A stretch of DNA of 64,000 nucleotides, taken from positions 18,941,401 through 19,005,400 of the forward strand of contig NC_087082.1 of NCBI RefSeq assembly GCF_026151205.1, written 5' to 3'. Shown here in pieces: positions 3,585-63,132 of this stretch (position 1 is its first letter; each line of letters opens with the position of its first letter). The stretch comes from Bolinopsis microptera. Taxonomy: Eukaryota; Ctenophora; Tentaculata; Lobata; Bolinopsidae. Under the pieces are notes generated by a model. That model had not been told where the DNA came from. It saw nothing but the letters and a program-made list of their open reading frames with translations, and made no database searches. A program made the position numbers and the translations under genes.

Positions 3585-3830
3585 TATTACCGTAGTATTT
3601 GTACATCTAGCTACGAATACAACTAACACAATTATCTCCGTAGATCTAGTTACGAACATAACTAACACAATTGTTTTTGTACATCTAGTTACGAACATAA
3701 CTAACACAATTGTTTTCGTACATCTAGTTACGAATATAACTAACACAATTGTTTTCGTACATCTAGTTACGAATATAACTAACACAATTGTTTTCGTACA
3801 TCTAGTTACGAATACAACTTACTCTACCCC
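3585..3830. repeat. 39-bp minisatellite, copy A
   Basis: About six tandem units of 39 bp centre on TTTTCGTACATCTAGTTACG. The unit is 13 codons long, so it stays open in several frames on both strands and yields spurious repeat proteins. The paralogous array at 26035-26395 has about nine units. Confidence 0.85.
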
Positions 3831-23463: not shown

Positions 23464-23929
23464 CTAAGACTTCTTTCTTCGTGTTACTTTTCTCATACCG
23501 GCTTTATCTCGAGATAACTTTCTCTTACTGGCTCTAACTTCACTAGCGCTAGACTTGCTGGGTACAACTTCACTAGAGCTAGACTTGCCGGATACAACTT
23601 CACTAGAGCTAGACTTGCCGGATACAACTTCACTAGAGCTAGACTTGCCGGATACAACTTCACTAGAGCTAGACTCACTGGGTAAAACATCAATAGAGCT
23701 AGACTTGCTGGGTATTTTGCGCGAATAATCTCTGCCAATCTTTACAAGAAATGTTTTTTGACAGTGGAAATGCATTAATGTTCTTTATCATTTTTATAGC
23801 ATCAGCCTGCACTTCTTCTTTACTTTTAGATAAGTTCACTTGGTCTAAAGGACGACCCTTCTTTTTTTTCCCCTTTGAGTCAGCCATTGTCCTGCAACAA
23901 GCTAAGATAACGTCATTCTGATAATGCAA
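23464..23929 (-). pseudogene. DWQRLF protein, N-terminal copy with SSSSEVV repeats
   Basis: From an ATG at 23887 the minus strand reads ADSKGKKKKGRPLDQ, an AT-hook-like KKKGRP stretch, then AIKMIKNINAFPLSKN and DWQRLFAQN. The reading frame then changes into five 10-residue SSSSEVVSGK repeats (30-bp units) and a basic end. It shows the N-terminus missing from the copies at 12718 and 29228, but most of the body is deleted. Whether the serine repeats belong to the original protein is unclear. Confidence 0.45.
23535..23715. repeat. 30-bp minisatellite
   Basis: Five to six units of 30 bp (GATACAACTTCACTAGAGCT core). The unit is ten codons, so it keeps the frame. Confidence 0.85.
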
Positions 23930-35396: not shown

Positions 35397-38447
<3,051 letters not shown>

Positions 38448-38634: not shown

Positions 38635-38883
38635 TGCAGAAAGACGGTGAGCATGACCAGATTCCAACTGAGTCAATGAGCTCCATTGTTAGCCCAACAC
38701 TGGGTGATGCTATCCCCACAGAGGACTCTAGAGTAGCCCAGTTTGAAGATTACCTGATTTATATCCTTCCACCTCTGGCGACGATCGTACTACCTTTCTC
38801 TTTGTTTAACGTCTATCTTCTGAATGTAACCAATAGATTGGGAAGTTCGTCACATTTTCTCTACCTCAACTTACTTTCTACAG
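38635..38883 (+). CDS. 7TM receptor exon 1 visible (N-tail, TM1, TM2 start)
   Basis: The exon follows a TTTTAGCAG acceptor and ends ACAG|GTACCAG in phase 1. It encodes an acidic extracellular tail (DGEHDQIPTESMSS), TM1 (YLIYILPPLATIVLPFSLFN) and the first half of TM2 (FLYLNLLST). Splicing to the next exon creates an aspartate codon across the junction, giving the L-x3-D arrangement typical of TM2 in rhodopsin-like receptors. No start ATG is in this exon, so a leader exon lies upstream, possibly beyond the GT repeat. Confidence 0.65.
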
Positions 38884-39211: not shown

Positions 39212-39354
39212 ATATTCTAACAGCATTATCTGGGATATTTATAGTTATTCACATCAAAAACCAAGACGAACTCAGCTTCTGGCTATTTAAAAACATGATC
39301 TGGCTCTCCTTCTACACAGCTGTACCGCTTCTCTTCAGCTTAGTTACCATCAGG
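39212..39354 (+). CDS. 7TM receptor exon 2 (TM2 end, TM3)
   Basis: Acceptor ATTTCCAG, donor AGG|GTTAGT, phase 1 to 0. It encodes the end of TM2 (ILTALSGIFIVIHI), a short extracellular loop and TM3 (MIWLSFYTAVPLLFSLVTIR). The usual DRY motif after TM3 is replaced by TIR joined to VLSRH, and the disulfide cysteine normal at the start of TM3 is absent. The exon's last bases are the first bases of the 43-bp satellite unit. Confidence 0.7.
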
Positions 39355-42300
39355 GTTAGTTATAACTTAGTATAACTCTTTTACTGTTACCATCAGAGTT
39401 AGTTATAACTTAGTCTAACTCTTTTACTGTTACCATCAGAGTTAGTTATAACTTAGTCTAACTCTTTTACTGTTACCATCAGAGTTAGTTATAACTTAGT
39501 CTAACTCTTTTACTGTTACCATCAGAGTTAGTTATAACTTAGTCTAACTCTTTTACTGTTACCATCAGAGTTAGTTATAACTTAGTCAAACTCTTTTACT
39601 GTTACCATCAGAGTTAGTTATAACTTAGTATAACTCTTTTACTGTTACCATCAGAGTTAGTTATAACTTAGTATAACTCTTTTACTGTTACCATCAGAGT
39701 TAGTTATAACTTAGTCTAACTCTTTTACTGTTACCATCAGAGTTAGTTATATCTTAGTATAACTCTTTTACTGTTACCATCAGAGTTAGTTATAACTTAG
39801 TCTAACTCTTTTACTGTTACCATCAGAGTTAGTTATAACTTAGTATAACTCTTTTACTGTTACCATCAGAGTTAGTTATAACTTAGTCTAACTCTTTTAC
39901 TGTTACCATCAGAGTTAGTTATAACTTAGTCTAACTCTTTTACTGTTACCATCAGAGTTAGTTATATCTTAGTATAACTCTTTTACTGTTACCATCAGAG
40001 TTAGTTATAACTTAGTATAACTCTTTTACTGTTACCATCAGAGTTAGTTATAACTTAGTCTAACTCTTTTACTGTTACCATCAGAGTTAGTTATATCTTA
40101 GTATAACTCTTTTACTGTTACCATCAGAGTTAGTTATAACTTAGTCTAACTCTTTTACTGTTACCATCAGAGTTAGTTATAACTTAGTCTAACTCTTTTA
40201 CTGTTACCATCAGAGTTAGTTATAACTTAGTATAACTCTTTTACTGTTACCATCAGAGTTAGTTATAACTTAGTATAACTCTTTTACTGTTACCATCAGA
40301 GTTAGTTATAACTTAGTCTAACTCTTTTACTGTTACCATCAGAGTTAGTTATAACTTAGTATAACTCTTTTACTGTTACCATCAGAGTTAGTTATAACTT
40401 AGTCTAACTCTTTTACTGTTACCATCAGAGTTAGTTATATCTTAGTCTAACTCTTTTACTGTTACCATCAGAGTTAGTTATAACTTAGTCTAACTCTTTT
40501 ACTGTTACCATCAGAGTTAGTTATATCATAGTCTAACTCTTTTACTGTTACCATCAGAGTTAGTTATATCTTAGTCTAACTCTTTTACTGTTACCATCAG
40601 AGTTAGTTATATCTTAGTATAACTCTTTTACTGTTACCATCAGAGTTAGTTATATCTTAGTCTAACTCTTTTACTGTTACCATCAGAGTTAGTTATATCA
40701 TAGTCTAACTCTTTTACTGTTACCATCAGAGTTAGTTATATCTTAGTCTAACTCTTTTACTGTTACCATCAGAGTTAGTTATAACTTAGTCTAACTCTTT
40801 TACTGTTACCATCAGAGTTAGTTATATCATAGTCTAACTCTTTTACTGTTACCATCAGAGTTAGTTATATCTTAGTCTAACTCTTTTACTGTTACCATCA
40901 GAGTTAGTTATATCATAGTCTAACTCTTTTACTGTTACCATCAGAGTTAGTTATATCTTAGTCTAACTCTTTTACTGTTACCATCAGAGTTAGTTATATC
41001 TTAGTCTAACTCTTTTACTGTTACCATCAGAGTTAGTTATAACTTAGTCTAACTCTTTTACTGTTACCATCAGAGTTAGTTATAACTTAGTCTAACTCTT
41101 TTACTGTTACCATCAGAGTTAGTTATATCTTAGTCTAACTCTTTTACTGTTACCATCAGAGTTAGTTATAACTTAGTCTAACTCTTTTACTGTTACCATC
41201 AGAGTTAGTTATATCATAGTCTAACTCTTTTACTGTTACCATCAGAGTTAGTTATATCTTAGTCTAACTCTTTTACTGTTACCATCAGAGTTAGTTATAT
41301 CATAGTCTAACTCTTTTACTGTTACCATCAGAGTTAGTTATATCTTAGTCTAACTCTTTTACTGTTACCATCAGAGTTAGTTATATCTTAGTCTAACTCT
41401 TTTACTGTTACCATCAGAGTTAGTTATAACTTAGTCTAACTCTTTTACTGTTACCATCAGAGTTAGTTATATCTTAGTCTAACTCTTTTACTGTTACCAT
41501 CAGAGTTAGTTATAACTTAGTCTAACTCTTTTACTGTTACCATCAGAGTTAGTTATATCTTAGTCTAACTCTTTTACTGTTACCATCAGAGTTAGTTATA
41601 ACTTAGTCTAACTCTTTTACTGTTACCATCAGAGTTAGTTATAACTTAGTCTAACTCTTTTACTGTTACCATCAGAGTTAGTTATATCTTAGTCTAACTC
41701 TTTTACTGTTACCATCAGAGTTAGTTATAACGTAGTCTAACTCTTTTACTGTTACCATCAGAGTTAGTTATATCTTAGTCTAACTCTTTTACTGTTACCA
41801 TCAGAGTTAGTTATATCTTAGTCTAACTCTTTTACTGTTACCATCAGAGTTAGTTATAACTTAGTCTAACTCTTTTACTGTTACCATCAGAGTTAGTTAT
41901 AACTTAGTCTAACTCTTTTACTGTTACCATCAGAGTTAGTTATATCTTAGTCTAACTCTTTTACTGTTACCATCAGAGTTAGTTATATCTTAGTCTAACT
42001 CTTTTACTGTTACCATCAGAGTTAGTTATAACTTAGTCTAACTCTTTTACTGTTACCATCAGAGTTAGTTATAACGTAGTATAACTCTTTTACTGTTACC
42101 ATCAGAGTTAGTTATATCTTAGTCTAACTCTTTTACTGTTACCATCAGAGTTAGTTATATCTTAGTCTAACTCTTTTACTGTTACCATCAGAGTTAGTTA
42201 TAACTTAGTCTAACTCTTTTACTGTTACCATCAGAGTTAGTTATAACTTAGTCTAACTCTTTTACTGTTACCATCAGAGTTAGTTATAACTTAGTCTAAC

Positions 42301-43598
42301 TCTTTTACTGTTACCATCAGAGTTAGTTATAACTTAGTCTAACTCTTTTACTGTTACCATCAGAGTTAGTTATAACGTAGTATAACTCTTTTACTGTTAC
42401 CATCAGAGTTAGTTATATCTTAGTCTAACTCTTTTACTGTTACCATCAGAGTTAGTTATATCTTAGTCTAACTCTTTTACTGTTACCATCAGAGTTAGTT
42501 ATAACTTAGTCTAACTCTTTTACTGTTACCATCAGAGTTAGTTATAACGTAGTATAACTCTTTTACTGTTACCATCAGAGTTAGTTATATCTTAGTCTAA
42601 CTCTTTTACTGTTGCCATCAGAGTTAGTTATATCTTAGTCTAACTCTTTTACTGTTACCATCAGAGTTAGTTATAACTTAGTCTAACTCTTTTACTGTTA
42701 CCATCAGAGTTAGTTATAACTTAGTCTAACTCTTTTACTGTTACCATCAGAGTTAGTTATAACTTAGTCTAACTCTTTTACTGTTACCATCAGAGTTAGT
42801 TATATCTTAGTCTAACTCTTTTACTGTTACCATCAGAGTTAGTTATAACGTAGTATAACTCTTTTACTGTTACCATCAGAGTTAGTTATAACGTAGTCTA
42901 ACTCTTTTACTGTTACCATCAGAGTTAGTTATATCTTAGTCTAACTCTTTTACTGTTACCATCAGAGTTAGTTATAACTTAGTCTAACTCTTTTACTGTT
43001 ACCATCAGAGTTAGTTATAACTTAGTCTAACTCTTTTACTGTTACCATCAGAGTTAGTTATATCTTAGTCTAACTCTTTTACTGTTACCATCAGAGTTAG
43101 TTATATCTTAGTCTAACTCTTTTACTGTTACCATCAGAGTTAGTTATATCTTAGTCTAACTCTTTTACTGTTACCATCAGAGTTAGTTATAACTTAGTCT
43201 AACTCTTTTACTGTTACCATCAGAGTTAGTTATAACGTAGTCTAACTCTTTTACTGTTACCATCAGAGTTAGTTATAACTTAGTCTAACTCTTTTACTGT
43301 TACCATCAGAGTTAGTTATAACGTAGTCTAACTCTTTTACTGTTACCATCAGAGTTAGTTATAACTTAGTCTAACTCTTTTACTGTTACCATCAGAGTTA
43401 GTTATAACTTAGTCTAACTCTTTTACTGTTACCATCAGAGTTAGTTATAACTTAGTCTAACTCTTTTACTGTTACCATCAGAGTTAGTTATATCATAGTC
43501 TAACTCTTTTACTGTTACCATCAGGGTTAGTTATATCTTAGTCTAACTCTTTTACTGTTACCATCAGAGTTAGTTATATCATAGTCTAACTCTTTTAC
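39355..43598 (+). repeat. 43-bp intronic satellite, about 98 copies
   Basis: The array fills intron 2 of the receptor, starting at its first intronic base. The unit GTTAGTTATAACTTAGTCTA + ACTCTTTTACTGTTACCATCAGA repeats with very few indels. Variant positions are AACTTA/ATCTTA/ATCATA/AACGTA and GTCTAACT/GTATAACT. The first unit overlaps the exon end (TTACCATCAG), so the founder spanned the exon-intron boundary. Each unit holds a TCTAAC word, a pyrimidine run, CAG and then GTTAGT, which are the parts of both splice sites. Confidence 0.97.
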
Positions 43599-43705
43599 TG
43601 TATAGCTCTTCAAGGTAAATTTAAGCACAAGCCATCTAAGAATACCTTGCAATTCAGAAGAATAAACAGTATTCTTCTGATTTGCTAACTTAAACTCCCT
43701 TGTAG

Positions 43706-43841
43706 GTACTCTCTCGTCATCTAGAGATATCAAAGTGGCTGTCGTACGGACTCAGAATTGCTAAAATAATGGCAGTATTATCCTGGTGCACTGGGCTAGG
43801 AGTAGCTGTCCTGCACAACTGTTATACATTTGGGAGAGTAG
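43706..43841 (+). CDS. 7TM receptor exon 3 (intracellular loop 2, TM4)
   Basis: Acceptor CTTGTAG and a donor GTAG|GTGATT, phase 0 to 1. It encodes VLSRHLEISKWLSYGLRIAK and TM4 (IMAVLSWCTGLGVAVLHNC), with the conserved TM4 tryptophan, then the start of the second extracellular loop with one cysteine. Confidence 0.65.
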
Positions 43842-44024: not shown

Positions 44025-44237
44025 GTTCGGAGATAAAGAATGTTCTGATAATGTGCGTTGTGATCCTAACCTGTGGCATGAACCTGTACGTGTGGTTAAC
44101 GTTAAAACGGGTACGATATGAGTCTAGTAGGGTGTACAAAGCAACTGTCACTGCTCTCTTCCTCTTCCTTAACTTCATGTTGTACTATGCTTATGTCACT
44201 GCTGTCAACATCTTCTCAATCTATGCCCTGGCTACAG
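44025..44237 (+). CDS. 7TM receptor exon 4 (TM5, TM6)
   Basis: Phase 1 to 1, donor ACAG|GTATAG. It encodes TM5 (IKNVLIMCVVILTCGMNLYV), a basic third intracellular loop (LTLKRVRYESSRVYKA) and TM6 (VTALFLFLNFMLYYAYVTAV). The FxxCWxP motif common in TM6 is missing. Confidence 0.7.
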
Positions 44238-44783: not shown

Positions 44784-45076
44784 GCAGCAGTGCATGTTCG
44801 ACCTCATCATGGGTAGGACTCCTGCTCTGCAGTAACAAAGGTAGACACGAGCTAGGCAACTGCTTGCTCATGTTGCACGGGATTGGGAACAACCTGATCC
44901 TGGTGACCATGAATATCAGGATGGCGAGGATAGTGGTGCAGTATCACGTCAGAACAGTTAGAGGTCACGTGAGAACAGCTAGAGGTCACGTGGGAACAGC
45001 TAGAGATCATGTGAGAACCGCTAGAGATTGGTTCAGTGGAGCTGAGGGAGATGAGGGACAGCCGCTAATTTCTTGA
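44784..45076 (+). CDS. 7TM receptor exon 5 (TM7, C-tail)
   Basis: Acceptor TCCTCAG, phase 1, ending at a TGA. It encodes the third extracellular loop, TM7 (ELGNCLLMLHGIGNNLILVT) and an intracellular tail. GNNLILV stands where rhodopsin-like receptors have NPxxY. The tail holds four 7-residue repeats of the RTARGHV type (21-bp units at 44945-45030), each with a threonine next to arginine. AATAAA follows at 45239. The whole gene fits a divergent class A GPCR; ligand unknown. Confidence 0.7.
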
Positions 45077-46518: not shown

Positions 46519-47577
46519 TTACATTAACTTCCAAGTATATTTTATCCAATCACCTTCATTTACGGACTCAGACAATTGAGTATTTATTTCTGGGTTTTCA
46601 CGTTTTATTAGAACCGACTGCCACAATTGACGGTCCACATAGTCTTTACATCTTTTTCGAACTATAAACCGAAACGGTATGTTTGGCATTGAAATGTCTG
46701 CATGCTCCTCTAGGTAGTGCTTCCCCATGGCCGTAGATTTGTTGCCATCCCTTACTGATTTGTAGTGTTCCCAGGCTCTACTTCTTTTAAACCTACCAGT
46801 TTCCCCAATGTAGGACTTATTACATATTTGGCATATTAATTGGTAGCAAATGTTTTTGATCATGCAGGATTTATCGCACTGGTAGCATTTGCTGTCACTT
46901 TGTTTATTGCATTTTGTTTGCTGTAGGCTAGATCTTGTTAAAGCTTCCATGAGACGTTGACCTGATGTGAATGTTACCCTGGTGGAATCCAAGAGGTTTT
47001 GATTTCTTAGGGTATAGTAGACTTTTCGACACGTCTGTTCATTTATATAAGGTAATGATAAGTAAGCTATTTTTGAGTTCTTTTTAGGCGCATTTTGTTT
47101 ATCCAGTGTATTCTGTGTTTCTCGAATAAGTTTCTTGACAATATTAGGAGGGAAACTATTCTTCTTTAGCATATCAGCTATTCTGTTGACACTCAGATCT
47201 TGTAGTTCAGGTGTGGAGCTGTTATTGATAGCCCTTCTGATCTCATTTTTGGCTGAGTTCAGAATCGTTCTACGAGGGTGAGCAGAGGCATAATTTAGGA
47301 ATATGTCCTGGCTGGTTGGTTTAACAAATAATGAAAAATCTAACCTCTTGTCCACCGTATTCATATAGATGTTCAGGTCCAAAAATGCAACACAATCTTT
47401 GGAGCACTCATATGTGAACTGTATATCCCTGTTCAACGAGTTAATGTAGTTAAACAGCAATAGTACTGTGTCTTCATCTCCCTCGATTATGCTGAAGCAG
47501 TCATCTACATATCTATCCCACATATCTATGATTGGGAGTCCTACTGGTTTGGGGGGAGCTTCTGGTATGTAGGAATA
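46519..47577 (-). pseudogene. Penelope-like RT palm end plus GIY-YIG endonuclease
   Basis: This minus-strand frame contains APPKPVGLPIIDMWDRYVDD, the catalytic YVDD of the RT palm, then the DLNIYMN segment of the thumb side. A cysteine-rich linker follows (CNKQSDSKCYQCDKSC), then CYQLICQICNKSYIGET with downstream R...EH, the GIY-YIG nuclease core of Penelope-like elements. It ends WIKYTWKLM and a stop. The frame is open but lacks the N-terminal RT fingers, so it cannot be a complete polymerase. Confidence 0.85.
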
Positions 47578-47580
47578 GTT

Positions 47581-49203
47581 TGGGCATTTTTTTTTGTGAC
47601 TTACATTACCGAGATAGCAAATTTTTACCTTTGAGGAGTCATGACTCGGTAACCATGCATGATGAGATGATATTTTGGTATTTATTTCCGTATCCGGAAT
47701 CTCTTCAGAACAATGCAGGTATAATTTAGTCTGTGTCTTAAGGAAATTTTACACAATCGCCTGCCAAAAAAGTGTGACTTACATTACAGGATAGACTTTG
47801 ATTTTCGGACTTAGGTGTATTCAAACTGCAATTCTATCTCGAATATGTCAGATAGCAGCTTTCATCTAGAATTTCTGCAAATTTGAGGCCTTAAGCTGCT
47901 AAAAAATGCTAAGTTTAAGATTCGTTCATTCGTTTATTACGTACATCACCCTCATACATTTGTGACTTACATTACAGACATTTGTGACTTACATTACTTT
48001 ATCTCCTGAAACCAAGATAATAATTCATTTTCGTGTGATATTAACTTGGAATACAAAATTTTTTTGATTCTACATGCTCATTTGGTAATAACATAACACA
48101 TAAATGTAATAATCCCCAATAACTTGAAATCATATTTTAATAATATCGACGAAATACATCATTGCCTTTAACTCAAAAATTAAAGGTTCTAGGCATATAG
48201 TTGATTGATAAGTTGAATATAAACTTGGCTATTCCGGTTCTTTTAAGCTATAACACAGTTCTCTAAGTGGTATGGTTCTCCAGATATGAATTTAATTGAA
48301 CAGTAAACGCGACCGCGACAGAGTGGTTACCATGGAAACGAAAAATACCACGATATAAGGTTGGAGTTGAACTCTAAATTTTTTTTCCAAACTCACAATG
48401 ACCTAATGCAACTTTTTTGAAGGTGCATCAATTATTGGACCATGTTTGTGTTTTTTGATACAGCCTAATCGACAATCTTAGACAGCAACACAACACAGCA
48501 AAGACAGTTCACAAATAGGAAGTTTTTTCAACTTCCTAGTTCGCGTTCTTTTACAGGTGAATTTGTATGAAACAGAACAGTCGAACAACATTAAGTCTGA
48601 ACTGTATTGTTGCTCAGCAGGGATTTTAAGGTGTCGTTTTGGTATGTGTGACATACATTACATTGTGACTTACATTACACTGTGACTTACATTACTACTT
48701 TATACACTTAATTACAGGCACATTTAACCCACTAGCAATCATGCAGTAATTGATCTATCGTCCTTGAAGGTAGTAGAGATAGGTCTGAGAATTCGGTTGT
48801 GGCTAGATTCGATTATTTGTCGGGAAAAAAACTTTTGTGGCAATATTGTGACTTACATTACATACTTTTGAAGGTAGATTTTTTTCTATGAATTAATACT
48901 TGTCACAAGTTTATCACTTGATTAATACTTATACACTAAAAGTACAAACCAAATTGCGGTAAATTTAAATCGATAGTATTAATCCTACTTGTCGAAGTAA
49001 GACTTGAGAAAAAGGTAAATAATTGGAGCAAAATTTACAGCAGACTTCAGCTGCACTTTTCATGAACTAAAATTTGCATTTAACGGTAAACCCTTATCGA
49101 GTCTGGCATTTGAGACCTTTTTAAACAACAAACAATCATTTTTTGATGCTTTCTATTGATTTAAAATTTTCACCAAAGTGGAAGTTTTAGAAAAAAATGC
49201 CCA
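47581..49203. mobile_element. Spacer element with GTGACTTACATTAC repeats
   Basis: The 1623 bp between the inverted Penelope-like copies begin TGGGCATTTTTTT and end with its complement, a 13-bp inverted repeat. It holds eight copies of GTGACTTACATTAC (one with a mismatch) at 47596, 47774, 47962, 47984, 48648, 48665, 48682 and 48848, all in the same orientation. No protein frame is present. It looks like a separate non-autonomous element; no clear target duplication is seen. Confidence 0.55.
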
Positions 49204-50013
49204 TTTGTTAAACCAACCAGCCAGGACATATTCCTAAATTATGCCTCTGCTCACCCTCGTAGAACGATTCTGAACTCAGCCAAAAATGAGATCAGAAGGG
49301 CTATCAATAACAGCTCCACACCTGAACTACAAGATCTCAGTGTCAACAGAATAGCTGATATGCTAAAGAAGAATAGTTTCCCTCCTAATATTGTCAAGAA
49401 ACTTATTCGAGAAACACAGAATACACTGGATAAACAAAATGCGCCTAAAAAGAACTCAAAAATAGCTTACTTATCATTACCTTATATAAATGAACAGACG
49501 TGTCGAAAAGTCTACTATACCCTAAGAAATCAAAACCTCTTGGATTCCACCAGGGTAACATTCACATCAGGTCAACGTCTCATGGAAGCTTTAACAAGAT
49601 CTAGCCTACAGCAAACAAAATGCAATAAACAAAGTGACAGCAAATGCTACCAGTGCGATAAATCCTGCATGATCAAAAACATTTGCTACCAATTAATATG
49701 CCAAATATGTAATAAGTCCTACATTGGGGAAACTGGTAGGTTTAAAAGAAGTAGAGCCTGGGAACACTACAAATCAGTAAGGGATGGCAACAAATCTACG
49801 GCCATGGGGAAGCACTACCTAGAGGAGCATGCAGACATTTCAATGCCAAACATACCGTTTCGGTTTATAGTTCGAAAAAGATGTAAAGACTATGTGGACC
49901 GTCAATTGTGGCAGTCGGTACTAATAAAACGTGAAAACCCAGAAATAAATACTCAATTGTCTGAGTCCGTAAATGAAGGTGATTGGATAGAATATACTTG
50001 GAAGTTAATGTAA
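49204..50013 (+). pseudogene. Penelope-like GIY-YIG endonuclease, truncated copy
   Basis: Plus-strand frame from FVKPTSQDIFLNYASAHPRR to the same stop as the minus copy. Over the shared last 217 residues I see one difference (WIEYTW against WIKYTW). The YVDD palm motif is absent, so only the linker and nuclease remain. Confidence 0.8.
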
Positions 50014-51431: not shown

Positions 51432-52508
51432 TCAGATGTCTGACCACCGTGATGGCGTGTAGTCTACCAAGGAATTCGACCAGCTGCAGTTGCACGTATA
51501 ACCGGAAACCGGAGGGTTATCCGGTATCAAAGCAAGAAACTTCGACAAACTGACTTTGAAGCTGGCAAACGTTTTCTCGGCTTTCACTTCACTCGGCACC
51601 TTATTCCACAGTTTGGATCCTCTTACTTCGAACGAGCTATCGTACAGTGTCTGGTTTCTCATCGAACTCGACTTTGATAGAGAATGAACAACTGCTTTAG
51701 TGCCATATCTGGATGTTTCCACAAACTCGATGCTACAGCTATTTGGAACAACGTTATTGTACGTTTTCCACATCATCAAGATGATGTATCTCTCTCTTCT
51801 CCGTTGCAGGGACATCAACTTCAAATGAGCTAGCCTCTCCCAGTAGTTTAAGCTGTATAGACCACCAATGCGGTTTGTAAAGGTACGCTGGACCCCCTCC
51901 AAAAGCTGAATCTCTGTCGTCTTGACTGGGTCCCACAGCAGACAACAGTACTCCAATAAGCTTCTGACTAGAGACTTGTAGAGGGTCATCATAACCACTT
52001 TATCCCGTGTCTTAAACACACTGAGCACCCAAGACAGTTTACTTCTAGCTTTGGTGACCATATCCCCGACGTGTTTAGACCAGCTCAGATCGCTTGACAC
52101 TTTTACACCAAGGTCTCTAACGTTTTCTACGGGATAAAGAGTGACGTCACTAGAAACCTTGTAGAGGAGACTTTCTACGTAGAAGGGAAGTTCACTTGAT
52201 AAGTTCCTCTTATTGTGTAGGTGGTTTAGGAGTTCGAACTTCTGCTCGTGTAACTTCATGTTGTTACATAGGGACCAATCTTTAATGCTGTAAAGATCAG
52301 TCTGAAGAAGTTGGCAGTCTTCAAGGCAGCTAATTTGCTTGGAAACCCTAGTATCGTCTGCAAAGAAGCTCACTCTAGAATGCTTAACCACGTCCTCTAG
52401 GTCGTTGATGAACAACAGGAAAAACAGTGGACCTAAAACACTGCCCTGAGGCACCCCGCTGAACACCTTAGCGCTGTCTGAATGCACACCGTTCACAACA
52501 ACAACTTG
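51432..52508 (-). pseudogene. Non-LTR reverse transcriptase, C-terminal half
   Basis: The minus-strand frame reads QVVVVNG, then SGVPQGSVLGPLFFLLFINDL-type palm start, SFFADDT (the catalytic ADD), DLGVKVSSDLSWSKHV, LLEYCCLLWDP, and a tail with GSKLWNKVPSEVKAEKTFASFK. This order is that of the CR1/Jockey-type RT C-terminal half and tail. The reading continues beyond the MITE (52674 up) as SFLTGRDQ, showing where the element split the gene. No endonuclease is present. Confidence 0.8.
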
Positions 52509-52516
52509 GTCACGAC

Positions 52517-52665
52517 CAGGGACAAAAGGATTTCGCGGCATGTACGAAATCGCGAAATTTCCCATTCTCCGCGACAAATTTTATGTATAGTTTAATGTAT
52601 AGCCTGTTAAATTTCGCGGTACCGCGATTTTTGGCCAAAATAATCGCGAAATCCTTTTGTCCCTG
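52517..52665. mobile_element. hAT-type MITE, 149 bp
   Basis: Perfect 21-bp terminal inverted repeats begin CAGGGACAAAAGGATTTCGC. They are flanked by an 8-bp duplication GTCACGAC (52509-52516 and 52666-52673). CAGGG ends and an 8-bp duplication are typical of hAT elements. The inside has no frame and more internal CGCGAAAT words. It sits within the LINE RT codons, so it came later than the LINE. Confidence 0.9.
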
Positions 52666-52940: not shown

Positions 52941-55900
52941 TCGGGGAGTACTGGTGCGCTACTGTTCATAGGATAGTACTGGTGCTTTACTGTTCATAGG
53001 AGAGTACTGGTACTCTACTGTTTATAGGAGAGTAATGGTGCTCTACTGTTCATAGGAGAGTAATGGTGCTCTACTGTTCATAGGAGAGTACTGGTGCTCT
53101 ACTGTTCATAGGAGAGTACTGGTACTCTACTGTTTATAAGAGAGTACTGGTGCTCGACTGTTTATAGGAGAGTACTGGTGCTCTACTGTTCATAGGAGAG
53201 TAATGGTGCTCTACTGTTCATAGGAGAGTACTGGTGCGCTACTGTTCATAGGAGAGTACTGGTGCTCGACTGTTTATAGGAGAGTACTGGTGCTCTACTG
53301 TTCATAAGAGAGGACTGGTGCTCTACTGTTCATAGGAGAGTACTGGTGCTCTACTGTTCATAGGATAGTACTGGTGCGCTACTGTTCATAGGAGAGTACT
53401 GGTGCTCTACTGTTCATAGGAGAGTACTGGTGCTCTACTGTTCATAGGAGAGTACTGGTGCTCTACTGTTCATAGGAGAGTACTGGTGCTCTACTGTTCA
53501 TAGGAGAGTACTGGTGCTCTACTGTTCATAGGAGAGTACTGGTGCTCTACTGTTCATAGGAGAGTACTGGTGCTCTACTGTTCATAGGAGAGTACTGGTG
53601 CTCTACTGTTCATAGGATAGTACTGGTGCGCTACTGTTCATAGGAGAGAACTGGTGCTCTACTGTTCATAGGAGGGTACTGGTGCTCTACTGTTCATAGG
53701 ATAGTACTGGTGCTCTACTGTTCATAGGAGAGTACTGGTGCTCTACTGTTCATAGGAGAGTACTGGTGCTCTACTGTTCATAGGAGAGTACTGGTGCTCT
53801 ACTGTTCATAGGAGAGTACTGGTGCTCTACTGTTCATATGAGAGTAGTGGTGCTCTACTGTTCATAGGAGAGTACTGGTGCTCTACTGTTCATAGGAGAG
53901 TACTGGTGCTCTACTGTTCATAGGAGAGTACTGGTGCTCTACTGTTCATAGGATAGTACTGGTGCCCTACTGTTCATAGGAGAGTACTGGTGCTCTACTG
54001 TTCATAGGATAGTACTGGTGCCCTACTGTTCATAGGAGAGTACTGGTGCTTTACTGTTCATAGGATAGTACTGGTGCTCTACTGTTCATAGGAGAGTACT
54101 GGTGCTCTACTGTTCATAGGAGAGTACTGGTGCGCTACTGTTCATAGGAGAGTACTGGTGCTCTACTTTTCATAGGAGAGTACTGGTGCTCTACTGTTCA
54201 TAGGAGAGTACTGGTGCTCTACTGTTCATAGGAGAGTACTGGTGCTCTACTGTTCATAGGATAGTACTGGTGCGCTACTGTTCATAGGAGAGTACTGGTG
54301 CTCTACTGTTCATAGGAGAGTACTGGTGCTCTACTGTTCATAGGAGAGTACTGGTGCTCTACTGTTTATAGGAGAGTACTGGTGCTTTACTGTTCATAGG
54401 AGAGTACTGGTGCTCTACTGTTCATATGAGAGTACTGGTGCTCTACTGTTCATAGGAGAGTACTGGTGCTCTACTGTTCATAGGAGAGTACTGGTGCTCT
54501 ACTGTTCATAGGAGAGTACTGGTGCTCTACTGTTCATAGGATAGTACTGGTGCCCTACTGTTCATAGGAGAATACTGGTGCTCTACTGTTCATAGGATAG
54601 TACTGGTGCTCTACTGTTCATAGGAGAGTACTGGTGCTCTACTGTTCAAAGGAGAGTACTGGTGCGCTACTGTTCATAGGAGAGTACTGGTGCTCTACTG
54701 TTCATAGGAGAGTACTGGTGCTCTACTGTTCATAGGATAGTACTGGTGCTCTACTGTTCATAGGAGAGTACTGGTGCTCTACTGTTCATAGGAGAGTACT
54801 GGTGCGCTACTGTTCATAGGAGAGTACTGGTGCTTTATTGTTTCTAGGATAGTACTGGTGCTTTACTGTTCATAGGAGAGTAATGGTGCTCTACTGTTCA
54901 TAGGAGAGTACAGGTGCTCTACTGTTCATAGGATAGTACTGGTGCTCTACTGTTCATAGGAGAGTACTGGTGCTCTACTGTTCATAGGAGAGTACTGGTG
55001 CTCTACTGTTCATAGGATAGTCTGGCGCTCTACTGTTCATAGGAGAGTACTGGTGCTCTACTGTTCATAGGAGAGTACTGGTGCGCTACTGTTCATAGGA
55101 TAGTACTGGTGCTCGACTGTTTATAAGAGAGGACTGGTGCTCTACTGTTTATAGGAGAGTAATGGTGCTCTACTGTTCATAGGAGAGTAATGGTGCTCTA
55201 CTGTTCATAGGAGAGTAATGGTGCTCTACTGTTCACAGGATAGTACTGGTGCTCTACTGTTCATAGGAGAGTACTGGTGCTCTACTGTTCATAGGAGAGT
55301 ACTGGTGCTCTACTATTCAGATTAGAGTAATGGTGCTCTGCTGTTCACAGGATAGTACTGGTGCTCTACTGTTCATAGGATAGTACCGATGCTCTACTGT
55401 TCATAGGATAGTACTGGTGCTCTAATGTTCATAGGATAGTACTGGTGCTCTACTCTTCATAGGAGAGTACTGGTGCTTTACTGTTCAGATGAGAGTAATG
55501 GTGCTCTGCTGTTCATAGGAGGGTACTGGTGCTCTACTGTTCATAGGAGGGTACTGGTGCTCTACTGTTCATAGGATAGTACTGATGCTCTACTGTTCAT
55601 AGGATAGTACTGGTGCTCTACTGTTCATAGGAGAGTACTGGTGCTTTACTGTTCAGATGAGAGTAATGGTGCTCTGCTGTTCATAGGAGAGTACTGGTGC
55701 TCTACTGTTTATAGGAGAGTACTGGTGCTTTACTGTTCATATGAGTGTACCGGTGCTCTACTGTTCATAGGAGAGTTATGGTGCTGTACTGTTCATAAGA
55801 GAGGACTGGTGCTCTACTGTTCATAGGAGAGGACTGGTGCTCTACTGTTCATAGGAGAGTAATGGTGCTCTACTGTTCATAGGAGAGTAATGGTGCTCTA

Positions 55901-56872
55901 CTGTTCATAGGAGAGTACTGATGTTCTACTGTTCATAGGAGAGTACTGGTGCTCTACTGTTCATAGGAGAGTACTGGTGCTCTACTGTTCATAGGAGAGT
56001 ACTGGTGCTCTACTGTTCAGATGAGAGTAATGGTGCTCTGCTGTTCATAGGAGAGTACTGGTGCTCTACTGTTTATAGGAGAGTACTGGTGCTTTACTGT
56101 TAATATGAGTGTACCGGTGCTCTACTGTTCATAGGAGAGTTATGGTGCTCTACTGTTCATAAGAGAGGACTCCAGTGCTCTACTGTTCATAGGAGAGTAA
56201 TGGTGCTCTACTGTTCATAGGATAGTACTGGTGCTCTACTGTTCATAGGAGAGTAATTGTGCTCTACTGTTTATAGGAGAGTAATGGTGCTCTACTGTTC
56301 ATAGGAGAGTAATGGTGCTCTACTGTTCATAGGAGAGTAATGGCGCTCTACTGTTCATAGGAGAGTAATGGTGCTCTACTGTTCACAGGATAGTATTGGT
56401 GCTCTACTGTTCATAGGAGAGTACTGGTGCTCTACTGTTCATAGGAGAGTACTGGTGCTCTACTGTTCAGATGAGAGTAATGGTGCTCTGCTGTTCATAG
56501 GAGAGTACTGGTGCTCTACTGTTTATAGGAGAGTACTGGTGCTTTACTGTTCATATGAGTGTGCCGGTGCTCTACTGTTCATAGGAGAGTTATGGTGCTC
56601 TACTGTTCATAAGAGAGGACTGATGCTCTACTGTTCATAGGAGAGGACTGGTGCTCTACTGTTCATAGGAGAGTAATGGTGCTCTACTGTTCATAGGAGA
56701 GTAATGGTGCTCTACTGTTCATAGGATAGTACTGGTGCTCTACTGTTCATAGGAGAGTAATGGTGCTCTACTGTTCATAGGAGAGTAATGGTGCTCTACT
56801 GTTCATAGGAGAGTAATGGTGCTCTACTGTTCATAGGAGAGTAATGGTGCTCTACTGTTCATAGGAGAGTAG
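52941..56872. repeat. 28-bp minisatellite, about 140 copies
   Basis: The unit AGGAGAGTACTGGTGCTCTA + CTGTTCAT is repeated about 140 times with point variants (TAGTACT, GTAATGG, TTTATAGG) and a few changes such as CAGATGAGAG near the right end. Three units make 28 codons, giving spurious repeat frames. The left two thirds are more uniform; the right third has more variants. Confidence 0.97.
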
Positions 56873-57639: not shown

Positions 57640-58077
57640 GTTACATTTTATATGCAGTAAATAACGAGATATCACCTGTATCCGTCTCTTTATCATCAAC
57701 GCGGGAGACTCTTGTGGCAACTAATGGCATAGACAAGGATACTAACACACGAGCTCATACATCATCTGAGTCTGACCCCTGGTTTAAAGCTAAGCTAGGA
57801 AAGACCTACTGTGTAGAGGAGGTGCGCCATTACATGTACTCTGACAAACTCGCGTATAACAAGCACACATGCTCGAGAGATGTGTGTACTGCTAGTGGTC
57901 GGTACTACAGAAGCTATCCTACTCGGTTCCCCGTGTCAGTGTACTCTGAGGATGGAACAGTACCTGACAACGTTCCTTCTGATTGTAAGATTGGAGACAC
58001 AGTGGTTATTAGTGGGGGTGATTTAGATTATCCCTGGGTCCACTTATTCGAGATAGTTATCATCGGAAGAGATATAG
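57640..58077 (+). CDS. Galactose-binding-like (F5/8 or fucolectin type) exon
   Basis: This 438-bp exon is phase 1 on both sides (acceptor ATTTCAG, donor ATAG|GTAAGA). It reads VSLSSTRETLVATNGIDKDT, then AHTSSESDPWFKAKLGKTYC and VEEVRHYMY, then FPVSVYSEDG and a final HLFEIVIIG. The A-x-DG..., T.AHT, DPWxxxxLG and V..V order is that of discoidin/fucolectin-type carbohydrate-binding jelly rolls. Four cysteines are present. The domain would be extracellular and ligand-binding. The exact subfamily is uncertain. Confidence 0.65.
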
Positions 58078-59616
58078 GTAAGATTTTATACCAGATTAGT
58101 TATCACTTTTCTCGATTATGCTAAAATTAACACAAACCTACGCCTACAAAATAAAAGATGATTTAAACAAACTTTTCATAAATCTGTTCATAAATCACCT
58201 TGAACTGTTCCAAGTTAAAAACAATTTGTGGATATGGTTGCCGGACAGTTGCCCCCCTTCTCACCCAATCTAGATTAAGTAACCATGTAATAGGAAGATG
58301 ACGAATAAAAAGTGCTTAATTCAGATACGACAGTTCCGCCCTGTTAATCATGATATCCTATTCTGTGAAATTCAGATCATATTTATTTAGAGCCACATAG
58401 AGTTTAAAGTGTTTCCGGGGCACAAATGTCGTTTTGAAAATCTGGCATGACGAATCAGCTATCAGTATCACGTCGCTGATTGGGAACCTGTAAATGCGTG
58501 GGAACAGGATCTGAAGGGGTGCAGCTCACAGTTATCGGCCGTGAATATACAGGGTGTCCCAAACAACAACCATTTGATCGGTGTTAACAACTCAAGAACG
58601 GTTTGAGAACGAGATTTATTAATAACTGGAGCGGAAGGGAGACCCGTGGTGTCCAGGAAAAATGTTTTCTTTGGTTCATTCGAGTAGGGTGTGGCAGCCA
58701 GTGAGCCTCATCACGCTATTTTACAAATTGTCTTATATCTCACTCATTTGTTATGTCATCGGTTTGTTGTGAAGATCATATTGTGATAATTGATCTAGAA
58801 ATGGGCTAGATGTGGGGTAGAGTTCACATGAGAACTCTGTTATAGTAGCTATAAATTAAGAAGTGAACATTATTTGGTTCCAGCCGCCGATACGCCGCCG
58901 CCGCCGAGTGAAACACGGCCTCACGCCGCCGCTGCAGCATTTTCGGCGGCGCCCACGTCTGTGCGCTACAACATACAAACATCTCGTTTTGTTGTGAGTG
59001 CTTGGTGCAACCACCGACTTGGCCCCCGATAATGATATTAGTAATCCGTTATATTGTTGAACAAATTATGATGCTGATATTATGTTGAACATGATTGTTA
59101 AGTGATTGGTTTGTTATACTTATACGAAATGGAAAATGGACCATAAGGCATAAATGTTATTATGACTATGAGTTACATTACCTAGTACTACAGATTTCAC
59201 GACTACCATTTTATTTAATCTAACAACTTATGTAAACTTGTAAACAACCATTCCTTTGCAAACTAGCATTCTTGCTTTGCATCAATCGATCTGGAAGAGT
59301 TGACATCGTCCATCAACCATTCCTTCACATAGCTTTTTTTCTTCAAAGTTTTAACTGTATATCACCACACAGGCGCAGGCTACGGTGTCCAGTCATTCAA
59401 CTTTTAAAATTTAAATAATTGACAATGGCAACCCCTCCATTTTGTGCTCTGTAGCGCCCCAAGAATGATGAATAAAGAACCATTATTTGATATTTTGACC
59501 AACATGAAACGATCGTTAATCGTAATTTTACATTTTAAAGGCAATGCCTACGGTTGATGGAAATATAGCGTCCGCTAACCGGTGCAATTATTCTTGTTAA
59601 TGAATTCAACTCACAG
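58078..59616 (+). other. Intron with a CCG-rich patch and transposon-like end
   Basis: Phase 1 intron between the galactose-binding-like exon and the first SRCR exon. TATACAGGGTGTCCC at about 58546 resembles a DNA-transposon terminus. Bases 58880-58960 are a CCG/GCC-rich island with the weakly palindromic GCCGCCG / CGGCGGCGCC. From about 58966 on the intron belongs to the unit repeated with each SRCR exon. Confidence 0.5.
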
Positions 59617-59922
59617 ATTTTAGTCTGGTGGACTCTCATGGTGATACTATTGGAGCTGGCATTCTTGGGTTACTAATCAGCGATGGAGGAACAGTTTGTA
59701 ACGATTATTTCACTGAAGATTCAGCTGATGCTATTTGTCGTGAAATGGGATACATGGGTCAAATGAGTTGGACATCCGGTAATAAGTGGGGCATCCAGTC
59801 AAATTATGATATTACCCTGGACGACGTTTCATGTCGCAGCGGTGAATGGAGTTTGTGTACATTTTCACTATCGAACAATTGTGATCACAGTAAAGATGTG
59901 TTTTTACAGTGTGATGCAACTG
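59617..59922 (+). CDS. SRCR domain exon 1
   Basis: A 306-bp exon, phase 1 on both sides (AACTCACAG acceptor, CTG|GTGAGT donor), holds one scavenger-receptor cysteine-rich domain. It reads GLLISDGGTVCNDYFTEDSA, then AICREMGYMGQMSW, YDITLDDVSC, CTFSLSNNC and DVFLQC. Six cysteines are conserved, as in group A SRCR domains. SRCR domains are extracellular and often bind microbial or protein ligands. Symmetric phase lets the exon be duplicated without breaking the frame. Confidence 0.9.
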
Positions 59923-60551
59923 GTGAGTCAACATCATAAATTAAAGGAAACCCTGTATAATTGGGTTAAACTTAAAAGTAATTTGATACCATAATACTTC
60001 ATCTTATACATGTGTTAAGTAGTTCAAGCTTTTCTTTACTTGATCATTGATCATGATGCGCTACAACATACAAACATCTCGTTTTGTTGTGAGTGCTTGG
60101 TGCAACCACCGACTTGGATCCCGATAATGATATTAGTAATCCGTTATATTGTTGAACAAATTATGATGCTGATATTATGTTGAACATGATTGTCGAGTGA
60201 TTGATTTGTTATAAAAAATGGACCATAATTGTTAATATGAGTTACACCTACTACAAATTTCACGACTACCATTTTCTTCAAAGTTTTAACTGCATATCAC
60301 CACACAGGCGCAGGCTACGGTGTCCGGTCATTTAACTTTTCAAATTTAAATAATTGACAATGACAACCCCTCCATTTTGTGCTCTGTAGCACCCCAAGAA
60401 TGATGAATAAAGAACCATTATTTGATATTTTGACCAACATGAAACGATCGTTAATTGTAATTTTACATTTTAAAGGCAATGCCTACGGTTGATGGAAATA
60501 TAGCGTCCGCTAACCGGCGCAATTATTCTTGTTAATAAATTCAACTCACAG

Positions 60552-60857
60552 ATTTTAGTCTGGTGGACTCTCATGGTGAGACTATTGGAGCTGGCATTCT
60601 TGGGTTACTAATCAGCGATGGAGGAACAGTTTGTGACGATTATTTCACTGAAGATTCAGCTGATGCTATTTGTCGTGAAATGGGATACATGGGTCAAATG
60701 AGTTGGACATCCGGTAATAAGTGGGGCATCCAGTCAAATTATGATATTACCCTGGACGACGTTTCATGCAGCAGCGGTGAATGGAGTTTGTGTACATTTT
60801 CATTATCAAACGATTGTGGTCACAGTAAAGATGTGTTTTTACAGTGTTATGAAATTG
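60552..60857 (+). CDS. SRCR domain exon 2
   Basis: Almost identical to exon 1. It has the more usual GGTVCDD and VSCSSG where exon 1 has VCND and SCRSG, plus NDCGHSKD. It ends in YEIG before the donor. The flanking introns are also duplicated. Confidence 0.9.
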
Positions 60858-61642
60858 GTGAGTCAACATCATAAATTAAAGGACACCCTGTATAAATGTG
60901 TTAAAAGTAATTTGATACCATAAAATATTGTCCAGCAAACAAGTCGAAGCACCTTCCGTTTCTAACCCTAATATAACCCTTAATTGTACCAAACTGATAA
61001 CCATGAAACGTTACTTCATTTTATAAATGTGTTAAGTAGTTCAAGCTTTTCTTTACTTGATCATTGATCATGATGCGCTACAACATACAAACATCTTGTT
61101 TTGTTGTGAGTGCTTGGTCATTGGTGCAACCACCGACTTGGCTCCCGATAATGATATTAGTAATCCGTTATATTGTTGAACAAATTATGATGCTGATATT
61201 ATGTTGAACATGATTGTCGAGTGATTGATTTGTTATACGGAATGGACGATAAATGTTATTATGAGTTATATCACCTGCCTACTACAAATTTCACGACTAC
61301 CATTTCATTTAATCTAACAACTTATGTAAACTTGTAAACAACCATTCCTTCACTTGGCTTTTTTTCTTCAAAGTTTTAACTGCATATCACCACACAGGCG
61401 CAGGCTACGGTATCCGGTCATTCAACTTTTAAAATTTGAATAATTGACAATGGCAACCCCTCCATTTTGTGCTCTGTAGCACCCCAAGAATGATGAATAA
61501 AGAACCATTATTTGATATTTTGACCAACATGAAACGATCGTTAATCGTAATTTTACATTTTAAAAGGCAATGCCTATGGTTGATGGAAATCTAGCGTCCG
61601 CTAACCAGCGCAATTATTCTTGTTAATGAATTCAACTCACAG

Positions 61643-61945
61643 ATTTTAGTCTGGTGGACTCTCATGGTGATACTATTGGAGCTGGCATTCTTGGGTTACT
61701 AATCAGCGATGGAGGAACAGTTTGTGACGATTATTTCTCTGAAGATTCAGCTGATGCTATTTGTCGTGAAATGGGATACTTTGGTCAAATGAGTTGGACA
61801 TCCGGTAATAAGTGGGGCATCCAGTCAAATTATGATATTACCCTGGACGACGTTTCATGCAGCAGCGGTGAATGGAGTTCGTGTACATTTTCACTATTGA
61901 ACAATTGTGGTCACAGTAAAGATGTGTTTTTACAGTGTGATGGAG
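61643..61945 (+). CDS. SRCR domain exon 3
   Basis: 303 bp, one codon shorter at the end (CDG). It has GYFGQMSW and WSSCTFSLLNNCGH. Frame and splice sites intact. Confidence 0.9.
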
Positions 61946-62804
61946 GTGAGTCAACATCATAAATTAAAGGAAAACTTGTATAATTGGGTTAAAAGTAATT
62001 TGATACCATAAAATATTGTTCAGTAAACAAGTGGAAGCACCTTCCGTTTCTAACCCTAATATAACCCTTAATTGTACTAAACTGATAACCATGAAACGTT
62101 ACTTCATCTTATACATGTGTTAAGTAGTTCAAGCTTTTCTTTAGTTGATCATTGATCATGATGCGCTACAACATACAAACATCTCGTTTTGTTTTGAGTG
62201 CTTGGTGCAACCACCGATTTGGCCCCGATAATTTTTTTTATTGAAATCTTTCAAATCAGTCAATTACATACAAGTTTACACAATGAATTAGTTAAATATA
62301 ATATTGTCCTCTAAGCATGGAAATGATATTAGTAATCCGTTATATTGTTGAACAAATTATGATGCTGATATTATGTTGAACATGATTTTCGAGTGATTGA
62401 TTTGTTAGGTATACGAAATGGACCATAAATGTTATTATAAGTTACATTACCTACCTACTACGGATTTCACGACTACCATTTTATTTAATCTAATAACTTA
62501 TGTAAACTTGTAAACAACCATTCCTTCACATGGCTTTTTTTCTTCCAAGTTTTAACTGCATATCATCACACAGGCGCAGGCTACGGTATCCGGTCATTCA
62601 ACTTTTCAAATTTCAATAATTGACAACGGCAACCCCTCCATTTTGTGCTCTGTAGCGCCCCAAGAATGATGAATAAAGAACCATTATTTGATATTTTGAC
62701 TAACATGAAACGATTTTACATTTTAAAGGCAATGCCTACGGTTGATGGAAATCTAGCGTCCGGTAACCGGTGCAATTATACTTGTTAATAAATTCAACTC
62801 ACAG

Positions 62805-63110
62805 ATTTTAGTTTGGTGGACTCTCATGGTGATACTATTGGAGCTAACATTCTTGGGTTACTAATCAGCAATGGAGGAACAGTTTGTCACAATTATTTCA
62901 CTGATTACTCAGCTGATGCTATTTGTCGTGAAATGGGATACTTTGGTGAAATGAGTTGGACATCTGGTAATAAGTGGGGCATCCAGTCAAATTATGATAT
63001 TACCCTGGACGACGTTTCATGTAGCAGCGGTGAATGGAGTTCGTGTACATTTTCATTATCGAACGATTGTGATCACAGTAAAGATGTGTTTTTACAGTGT
63101 TATGTTATTG
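62805..63110 (+). CDS. SRCR domain exon 4
   Basis: 306 bp, the most divergent copy: GANILGLLISNGGTVCHNYF, TDYSADAIC and GYFGEMSW. All six cysteines and both splice sites are kept. The gene should continue to the right, past the poly-G and the window edge, because the donor is in phase 1 with no stop. Confidence 0.9.
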
Positions 63111-63132
63111 GTGAGTCAACATCATAAATTAA

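Follow-up and report, generated by a model that had tools for sequence, protein, structure and literature searches.

Tandem copies of a modelled exon–intron junction inside an intron of the ctenophore Bolinopsis microptera, with similar arrays at other genes

Minisatellite-like tandem duplications of exon–intron boundaries, known as "mirages," have been described in amphioxus in the genes Adh3, TnC, and PGBD5 and in the globin genes BflGb6 and BflGb9 (PMC3087553, PMC3902484). In the parts of these reports that are drawn on here, reverse transcription PCR suggests that splicing is regular, the arrays are unstable in length, and mirages are treated gene by gene and suspected to be general in amphioxus (PMC3087553, PMC3902484). 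In a stretch of 64,000 nucleotides from the ctenophore Bolinopsis microptera (NC_087082.1, positions 18,941,401 to 19,005,400; hereafter the window, whose numbering is used below), we find an array of this kind: the apparent end of exon 2 of a gene, together with the beginning of intron 2, stands in 99 tandem units of 43 bp. This array appears to be one of a recurring class in this ctenophore genome, found at donors and acceptors of several genes.

The amphioxus mirage is the closest known kind, and its two anatomical features are both found here in the modelled gene: a tandem array (43 bp × 99) and a unit that spans the boundary, with 12 exonic and 31 intronic bases. As in the mirages of those reports, many units bear AG/GT signals and units are homogenised inside the cluster; copy number varies too, here between paralogs. 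The two cases differ in their host, here a ctenophore and not a cephalochordate, in the presence of such arrays at several genes of one genome, and in size, 99 units against 3–6 in the globin haplotypes quoted (PMC3087553, PMC3902484). In addition, the amphioxus case has RNA evidence, whereas the present one is known from sequence alone. Among the titles and abstract openings listed in a literature search, none reports junction arrays in a ctenophore; the ctenophore papers considered were PMC8527503 and PMC12221973.

Recursive splice sites consist of a pyrimidine-rich stretch with AG and a donor side by side. They are defined in passing in a study that, in the part used here, concerns dual-specific splice sites within the tandem repeats of UBC and VCX3A (PMC10809524). 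Those repeats resemble the window array in carrying acceptor and donor signals in each unit; however, the UBC units are coding and have AG|GT without a gap, whereas the window units are intronic with a one-base gap. The window sites also differ from recursive sites in not being zero-length, and in lying in an intron that would measure 137 bp without the copies. In human segmental duplications, ~30-bp minisatellites with an average of 4 units occur at exon edges of recently duplicated genes; according to the portion of the report considered, new introns or alternative forms result there (PMC2812944), whereas in the window an existing intron is lengthened. Intron gain by tandem duplication, as presented in the sections considered of PMC4974935, likewise involves a tandem duplication across a splice boundary, but here exon 2 and intron 2 stay put and no new intron is seen. 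A Chlamydomonas paper (PMC4938644) was rejected as a precedent, as the parts of it considered, including the Discussion, contain no junction arrays.

The array can be cut into exactly 99 × 43 bp (39343–43599), head to tail and without interruption, and Tandem Repeats Finder (TRF) places it at 39343–43601 with a period of 43, 99.0 copies, 97% matches, and a score of 7972. Unit 1 (39343–39385, forward strand) is the authentic end of exon 2 with the first 31 bases of the intron, GTT ACC ATC AGG|GTTAGT, and the 98 further copies of the junction (39386–43599, same strand) all lie within intron 2. These copies make up 98 × 43 = 4214 bp of an intron of 4351 bp (39355–43705). A preliminary description of this DNA had counted about 98 junction copies in one intron, which agrees with the present count of 98 in addition to the exon end itself. 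It had also placed the start of the unit at the first intronic base; the unit is indeed a junction, but it is better cut 12 bp inside exon 2, at the codons for V-T-I-R.

Just 6 of the 43 positions vary across the 99 units, and the mean difference between units is 2.6%. CAG (unit positions 9–11) and GTTAGT (positions 13–18) are present in all 99; TCTAAC occurs in 82 and is replaced by TATAAC in 16, so that 98 units carry one or the other. The base that separates CAG from GTTAGT is A in 97 units and G in two, units 1 and 98. The CAG and GTTAGT that had been assigned to each unit are found, as is the reported contrast between a true donor CAGG|GTTAGT and repeats that nearly all read CAGA|GTTAGT, and the single copy said to regain G is unit 98, at position 43525 (forward strand). 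The repeat unit is a modelled exon–intron junction, and all units have acceptor-like and donor-like signals one base apart. No clear higher-order structure was found in the array, the autocorrelation of repeat types being 0.20–0.37 over lags 1–24 against 0.26 expected.

The host gene was modelled with five exons, all on the forward strand, from open frames, splice signals, and paralogs, and its upstream start lies outside the model. C-numbers below denote contigs and L-numbers stretches of the genome; the gene and one of its paralogs, L009, are both on C11. Coding exon 1, the first exon seen (38635–38883), has an open frame, a TTAGCAG| acceptor, and a |GTACCA donor, and the same exon is present in L009. 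Exon 2 (39212–39354) ends GTT ACC ATC AGG| (V-T-I-R), and the exon of a second paralog, on C12, ends ...LVLIR / ATCAGG|GTAGGT at the same place. Exon 3 (43706–43841) follows the acceptor CCCTTGTAG| and, together with exon 4 (44025–44237, an open frame), matches the C12 paralog in 65 of 118 residues. Exon 5 (44784–45076) is an open frame with the stop codon; it contains an in-frame 21-bp coding repeat identified by TRF (44944–45026; HVRTARG/D) with 4 units, against 11 in L009 (L009:8104–8336). A 1.1-kb GTGTCT/GTGTGT microsatellite lies 5' of exon 1 (37303–38416) and is nearly missing from L009. The encoded protein has seven hydrophobic segments, which is in keeping with the earlier proposal of a receptor; however, neither Pfam (best E 0.36) nor a PDB sequence search (up to E 1) gave a match that would support it, and a Pfam search of four unspliced relatives gave no significant match. 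The label "receptor" is a guess from topology.

When two candidates were scored, the 43-bp unit was found in one other gene, L009, 318 kb away on the same chromosome, which has 8 array units and an uninterrupted frame of 392 residues up to its stop. Between the two genes, 2.0% of aligned bases differ in exons 1–4 and 7.1% in intron 1; the mean unit difference is 2.0% within the L009 array and 3.0% between both arrays. Copy number is thus 99 against 8 in near-identical C11 paralogs, and it is between paralogs that length instability was compared. A genome search with a 22-base pattern of the unit, allowing up to 3 mismatches, returned 107 hits in forward and 2 in reverse orientation (control, 2). 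The figure of 107 is the combined number of units, and all 100 matches listed sit at the two C11 genes; among the matches listed, the unit is confined to these two paralogs, unlike a satellite dispersed over many unrelated loci. An insertion of ~1.35 kb in intron 3 of L009 (L009:4690–6041) is missing from the window gene.

Exon 2 of L009 ends ATC AGA, so that the A variant of the array stands at its modelled true donor, as would follow from exchange between the true junction and the array units. Because a true exon 2 itself ends in A, the donor probably functions in its A form, if the L009 gene is used. The substitution of A for G had been said to weaken the donor, and computed pairing with U1 is indeed weaker, at −4.5 kcal/mol for the unit donors against −6.1 for the true donor; the end of exon 2 in L009 argues the other way. 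The true donor of the window gene is itself the weakest of the gene's four donors, and the still weaker A form is the modelled donor in L009. G is likely to be the ancestral base before the donor, since the C12 paralog has G at the same intron position.

This C12 paralog is 52–55% identical to the window gene in the two longest matches. Its intron 2 has the same position without an array there, which places the window array in a shared intron and not in a newly gained one. It carries an independent array (L031:2663–3704, minus strand) of 49 bp × 21 over the donor of exon 4, in which units read TTACAG|GTGAGG in 20 cases and GTAAGG in 1, with no base between acceptor and donor; the AGGT core is present as ACAGGTGAG or ACAGGTAAG. 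The sequence TTTACTGG occurs in the exon and is repeated in the intron, at the unit edges, which suggests slippage between short direct repeats. Judged by its units, the C12 array is a better candidate for recursive splicing than that of the window. A further array, of 28 bp, has 140 units in the window (52946–56871) and 214 near a paralog (L033:941–7012), with no exon edge seen.

The genome measures 265 Mb, and among the matches listed eleven contigs of 15–26 Mb are represented. Junction arrays were sought across it as three AGGTRAGT motifs 15–45 bases apart, with the motif read backwards as control. There were 2793 such triples against 215 for the control, while single sites numbered 19232 against 15615; triples of CAGGTAAGT numbered 447 against 0. 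Among the matches listed, the first 2.51 Mb of C1 contain 5 arrays, compared with 7 control arrays in ~39.7 Mb (binomial p 0.0004; 0.003 if the two related arrays are taken as one). Sixteen arrays, again among the matches listed, were examined at their flanks: 5 AGGTRAGT triples, 9 CAGGTAAGT triples, and 2 from the single-motif scan. In this small and partly motif-selected sample, where exons were called by open frames and splice signals, 12 of the 16 lie across or next to an exon edge, compared with 1 of the 7 controls (Fisher p 0.02); counted as independent, the arrays give 11 of 15 and a Fisher p of 0.02 as well. The controls comprise one array that abuts an acceptor, one that spans a stop codon, one in-frame coding array, one away from the nearest exon seen, and three without coding flank or ambiguous; neighbouring 9-bp arrays at C1:7912179–7914358 were counted as one, and the stop-codon array was not taken as an exon edge.

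On the same open frames and splice signals, the exon-edge arrays lie at donors on C1 (36.5k with a duplicate at 761k, 400.8k, 428.6k, and 885k) and on other contigs (C4:1.26M, C4:3.73M, C5:13.82M, C10:1.535M, and C10:4.507M), and at acceptors at C1:2508k and C8:7.269M; those at C4:1.26M and C8:7.269M abut the exon without overlapping it. Of the 12 donor arrays listed, 10 have a period that is not divisible by 3, which fits copies that do not code for protein. The exon at C10:4.507M has a homeodomain match above the Pfam cut-off (E 2.7e-13, 1–45 of 57) that ends at the donor. A WD40-type exon at C5:13.82M (E 1.7e-5) and a copine exon at C1:2508k (E 1.5e-4) fall below the curated cut-offs, the matches at C1:400.8k (sushi, E 0.029) and C4:1.26M (E 0.12) are weak, and no Pfam match was obtained for the fragments from C1:36.5k, C4:3.73M, and C10:1.535M; the scans left out the fragments from C1:428.6k, C1:885k, and C8:7.269M. 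Some of the surveyed exons are candidates for parts of dynein or importin genes.

Two more junction arrays were met without the motif and stand outside the 16: one over the donor of a sushi exon (L065:3853–4014; Pfam E 2.7e-4, above cut-off) and one built from copies of an acceptor, the acceptor itself being located beyond a short run of C (L064:5396–5635). Sushi-like exons in L065 (C1:398500–404500) and in L092/L093 (C1:428130–431350) have junction arrays with units of 34, 37, and 54 bp, two of which lie over similar exon ends. At C8:7268823–7269127 (L072, L095), units of a 37-bp array read TTACTCTTACCTTATTTCAG|GTAAGT, and the last runs straight into an apparent coding exon. A 53-bp array crosses the stop codon of a membrane-receptor-like frame at C1:14760908–14761180 (L084, L085), another boundary that survives tandem copying. 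A 41-bp × 8 array at L067:440–773 lies in an apparently coding stretch (WWANIWYINNLVPWKATEVCVGQTW), possibly of a damaged gene.

We consider it probable that the end of exon 2 and its donor were duplicated in tandem, that the array then expanded to 99 units, and that it is removed with intron 2. The anatomy is observed directly and a duplication origin would be the plain reading of it; removal as a single intron and neutrality are what we infer, partly by analogy with the amphioxus mirages. Every unit holds the whole exon end and its donor in one register, so the junction would survive growth or shrinkage of the array: whichever units are gained or lost, the left edge would still present a complete exon end with a donor, and the surplus copies, inside intron 2, would be spliced out when exon 2 is joined to exon 3. 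The array is most likely harmless extra intron DNA. Decoy sites, a splicing ratchet, and simple tolerance had been offered as possible consequences; the last is the best supported, given that the published amphioxus mirages splice apparently normally and that similar arrays occur at other genes.

Several observations nevertheless weigh against this account. Tolerance by itself leaves unexplained why so many arrays have started at junctions, as donor-motif triples are 13 times commoner than the reversed control against 1.23-fold for single motifs, in comparisons that have the reversed motif as their one control. Four of the 16 donor-motif arrays have no recognised exon edge: that of L067 lies ~16 bp from an acceptor, those at C6:20294637 and C10:17037541 have no coding flank on either side, and an array of 11-bp units at C8:17904441, examined on one side, has no recognised edge there. 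In three of the 16 (L064, L066, and L068) the motif is on the strand opposite to the assigned splice site, and L066 repeats the L064 unit; moreover, the nine CAGGTAAGT arrays were examined at the upstream flank first, with the other flank for three, whereas the seven controls were examined at both. Many arrays in the window and in the extracted stretches have no recognised junction, including in the window those of 28 bp at 52946, 39 bp at 3601 and 26046, and 30 bp at 23536.

Junctions might be preferred birthplaces of arrays, either because exon edges are especially prone to mutation by tandem duplication or because arrays are favoured there. On this proposal, which is compatible with removal of the copies along with intron 2 and which we hold only tentatively, the class goes beyond what chance and tolerance together would give. 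The excess of AGGTRAGT triples over that of single sites, the CAGGTAAGT triples, the density of arrays on C1, and the share found at exon edges all favour it; however, long arrays weigh heavily in the match counts, C1 may not be typical in its first Mb, a single control motif was used, selection by a donor motif favours donors, and where introns measure about 140 bp, a 43-bp unit placed at random would frequently reach a junction. A still more doubtful extension is that junctions act as preferential seeds of minisatellites and that perhaps hundreds of introns have been lengthened by copying of their own junctions, through junction-linked mutation (e.g., R-loops or a paused polymerase) or because repeated donors are tolerated or favoured, with exact AG|GT arrays perhaps removed stepwise.

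For the window array itself, stepwise removal by recursive splicing, each unit serving as acceptor first and as donor next, seems very unlikely, even though the motif content of the units would suit it and the stretch before CAG is 75% pyrimidine against 44–69% at the gene's five real acceptors. Human UBC makes use of AG|GT sites within tandem repeats as both acceptor and donor, according to the part of that study considered (PMC10809524), and some sister arrays have zero-base layouts (C12, TTACAG|GTGAGG; C8, TATTTCAG|GTAAGT). The layout in the window had been called close to that of recursive sites, which is true in that acceptor and donor lie one base apart, but AG directly followed by GT is found in none of its units: these read CAG-A-GTTAGT (97 of 99) or CAG-G-GTTAGT (2 of 99), and hence CAGAGTT or CAGGGTT without an AGGT core. 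Because of that one base, each step would add a base to the mRNA and shift the frame; any of the 98 downstream donors, if kept, would give the same truncated protein ending VTIRVSYNLV* (98 of 98); and the unit donor pairs weakly with U1. The idea that array donors form part of a coding exon was rejected on the same immediate stop.

The uniform truncated product, together with the retention of GTTAGT in every unit, could also be read as a sign of regulation, in which donor copies titrate U1 or slow the splicing of intron 2 and so tune the output, perhaps with a truncated form when they are misused. We regard this as unlikely. Conservation of the motif does not need selection, of which the units give no sign: the 7 positions variable in either C11 array avoid the 9 splice-core positions, with a chance p of 0.17. 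The 99 and 8 copies of near-identical paralogs also speak against a tuned array. A local hairpin has near −9 kcal/mol in most units against −5.0 in unit 1, but the notion that it shields the extra donors failed in context and was rejected, as the first donor ranks 96th of 99 in openness and that of L009 is the least open of its 8. Finally, long tandem arrays are prone to mis-assembly and the exact copy number is uncertain, yet an artefact of assembly or tools is highly improbable given the patterned variants along the array, the second array in the paralog, and the different junction arrays in other genes.

Other features of the genome and window were noted. A search pattern derived from the 3' part of the spliced leader of Hormiphora, up to its end, as given in part of PMC8527503, had 643 matches with up to 2 mismatches against 386 for its control, and five of the best matches lie on one strand within 83 kb of C13. 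Three of these five were extracted, and all three align with the Hormiphora leader (PMC8527503) and are each followed by a GT donor. The spliced-leader-like genes there (C13:12811425–12894520; L099–L101) end in AATTTGAG and then GT, resembling that leader, and most likely indicate a ctenophore host. In the window, open reading frames (ORFs) at 46519–47748 (minus strand) and 49165–50013 (plus strand) have near-identical ends in opposite orientation and a YIGETGR motif; we take them to be GIY-YIG-like, and Pfam gave no match for the first. A reverse transcriptase fragment lies at 51432–52580 (minus strand; RVT_1, E 2.4e-9). The segment at 57642–63127 holds one or more genes, with an F5/8C-like exon and, at intervals of ~1 kb, four frames that resemble one another; the first of these was scanned and matches SRCR (E 4.4e-14).

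The window array is a real and clear case of a known kind in a seemingly new lineage, with many copies and with evidence of recurrence across the genome; relative to the papers considered, its novelty seems to lie in the host lineage, in the recurrence, and perhaps in the number of copies. What a specialist would find surprising is this recurrence, together with the overrepresentation of donor motifs in arrays. That such arrays occur at splice sites of both types, in several genes of an animal only distantly related to amphioxus, suggests a recurring route of intron growth. With 99, 21, and 8 near-identical donors in a row, these genes are natural test cases for how the spliceosome picks out the first site among many equivalent ones, and the two C11 paralogs, nearly the same gene with 99 and 8 units, are a ready-made comparison.

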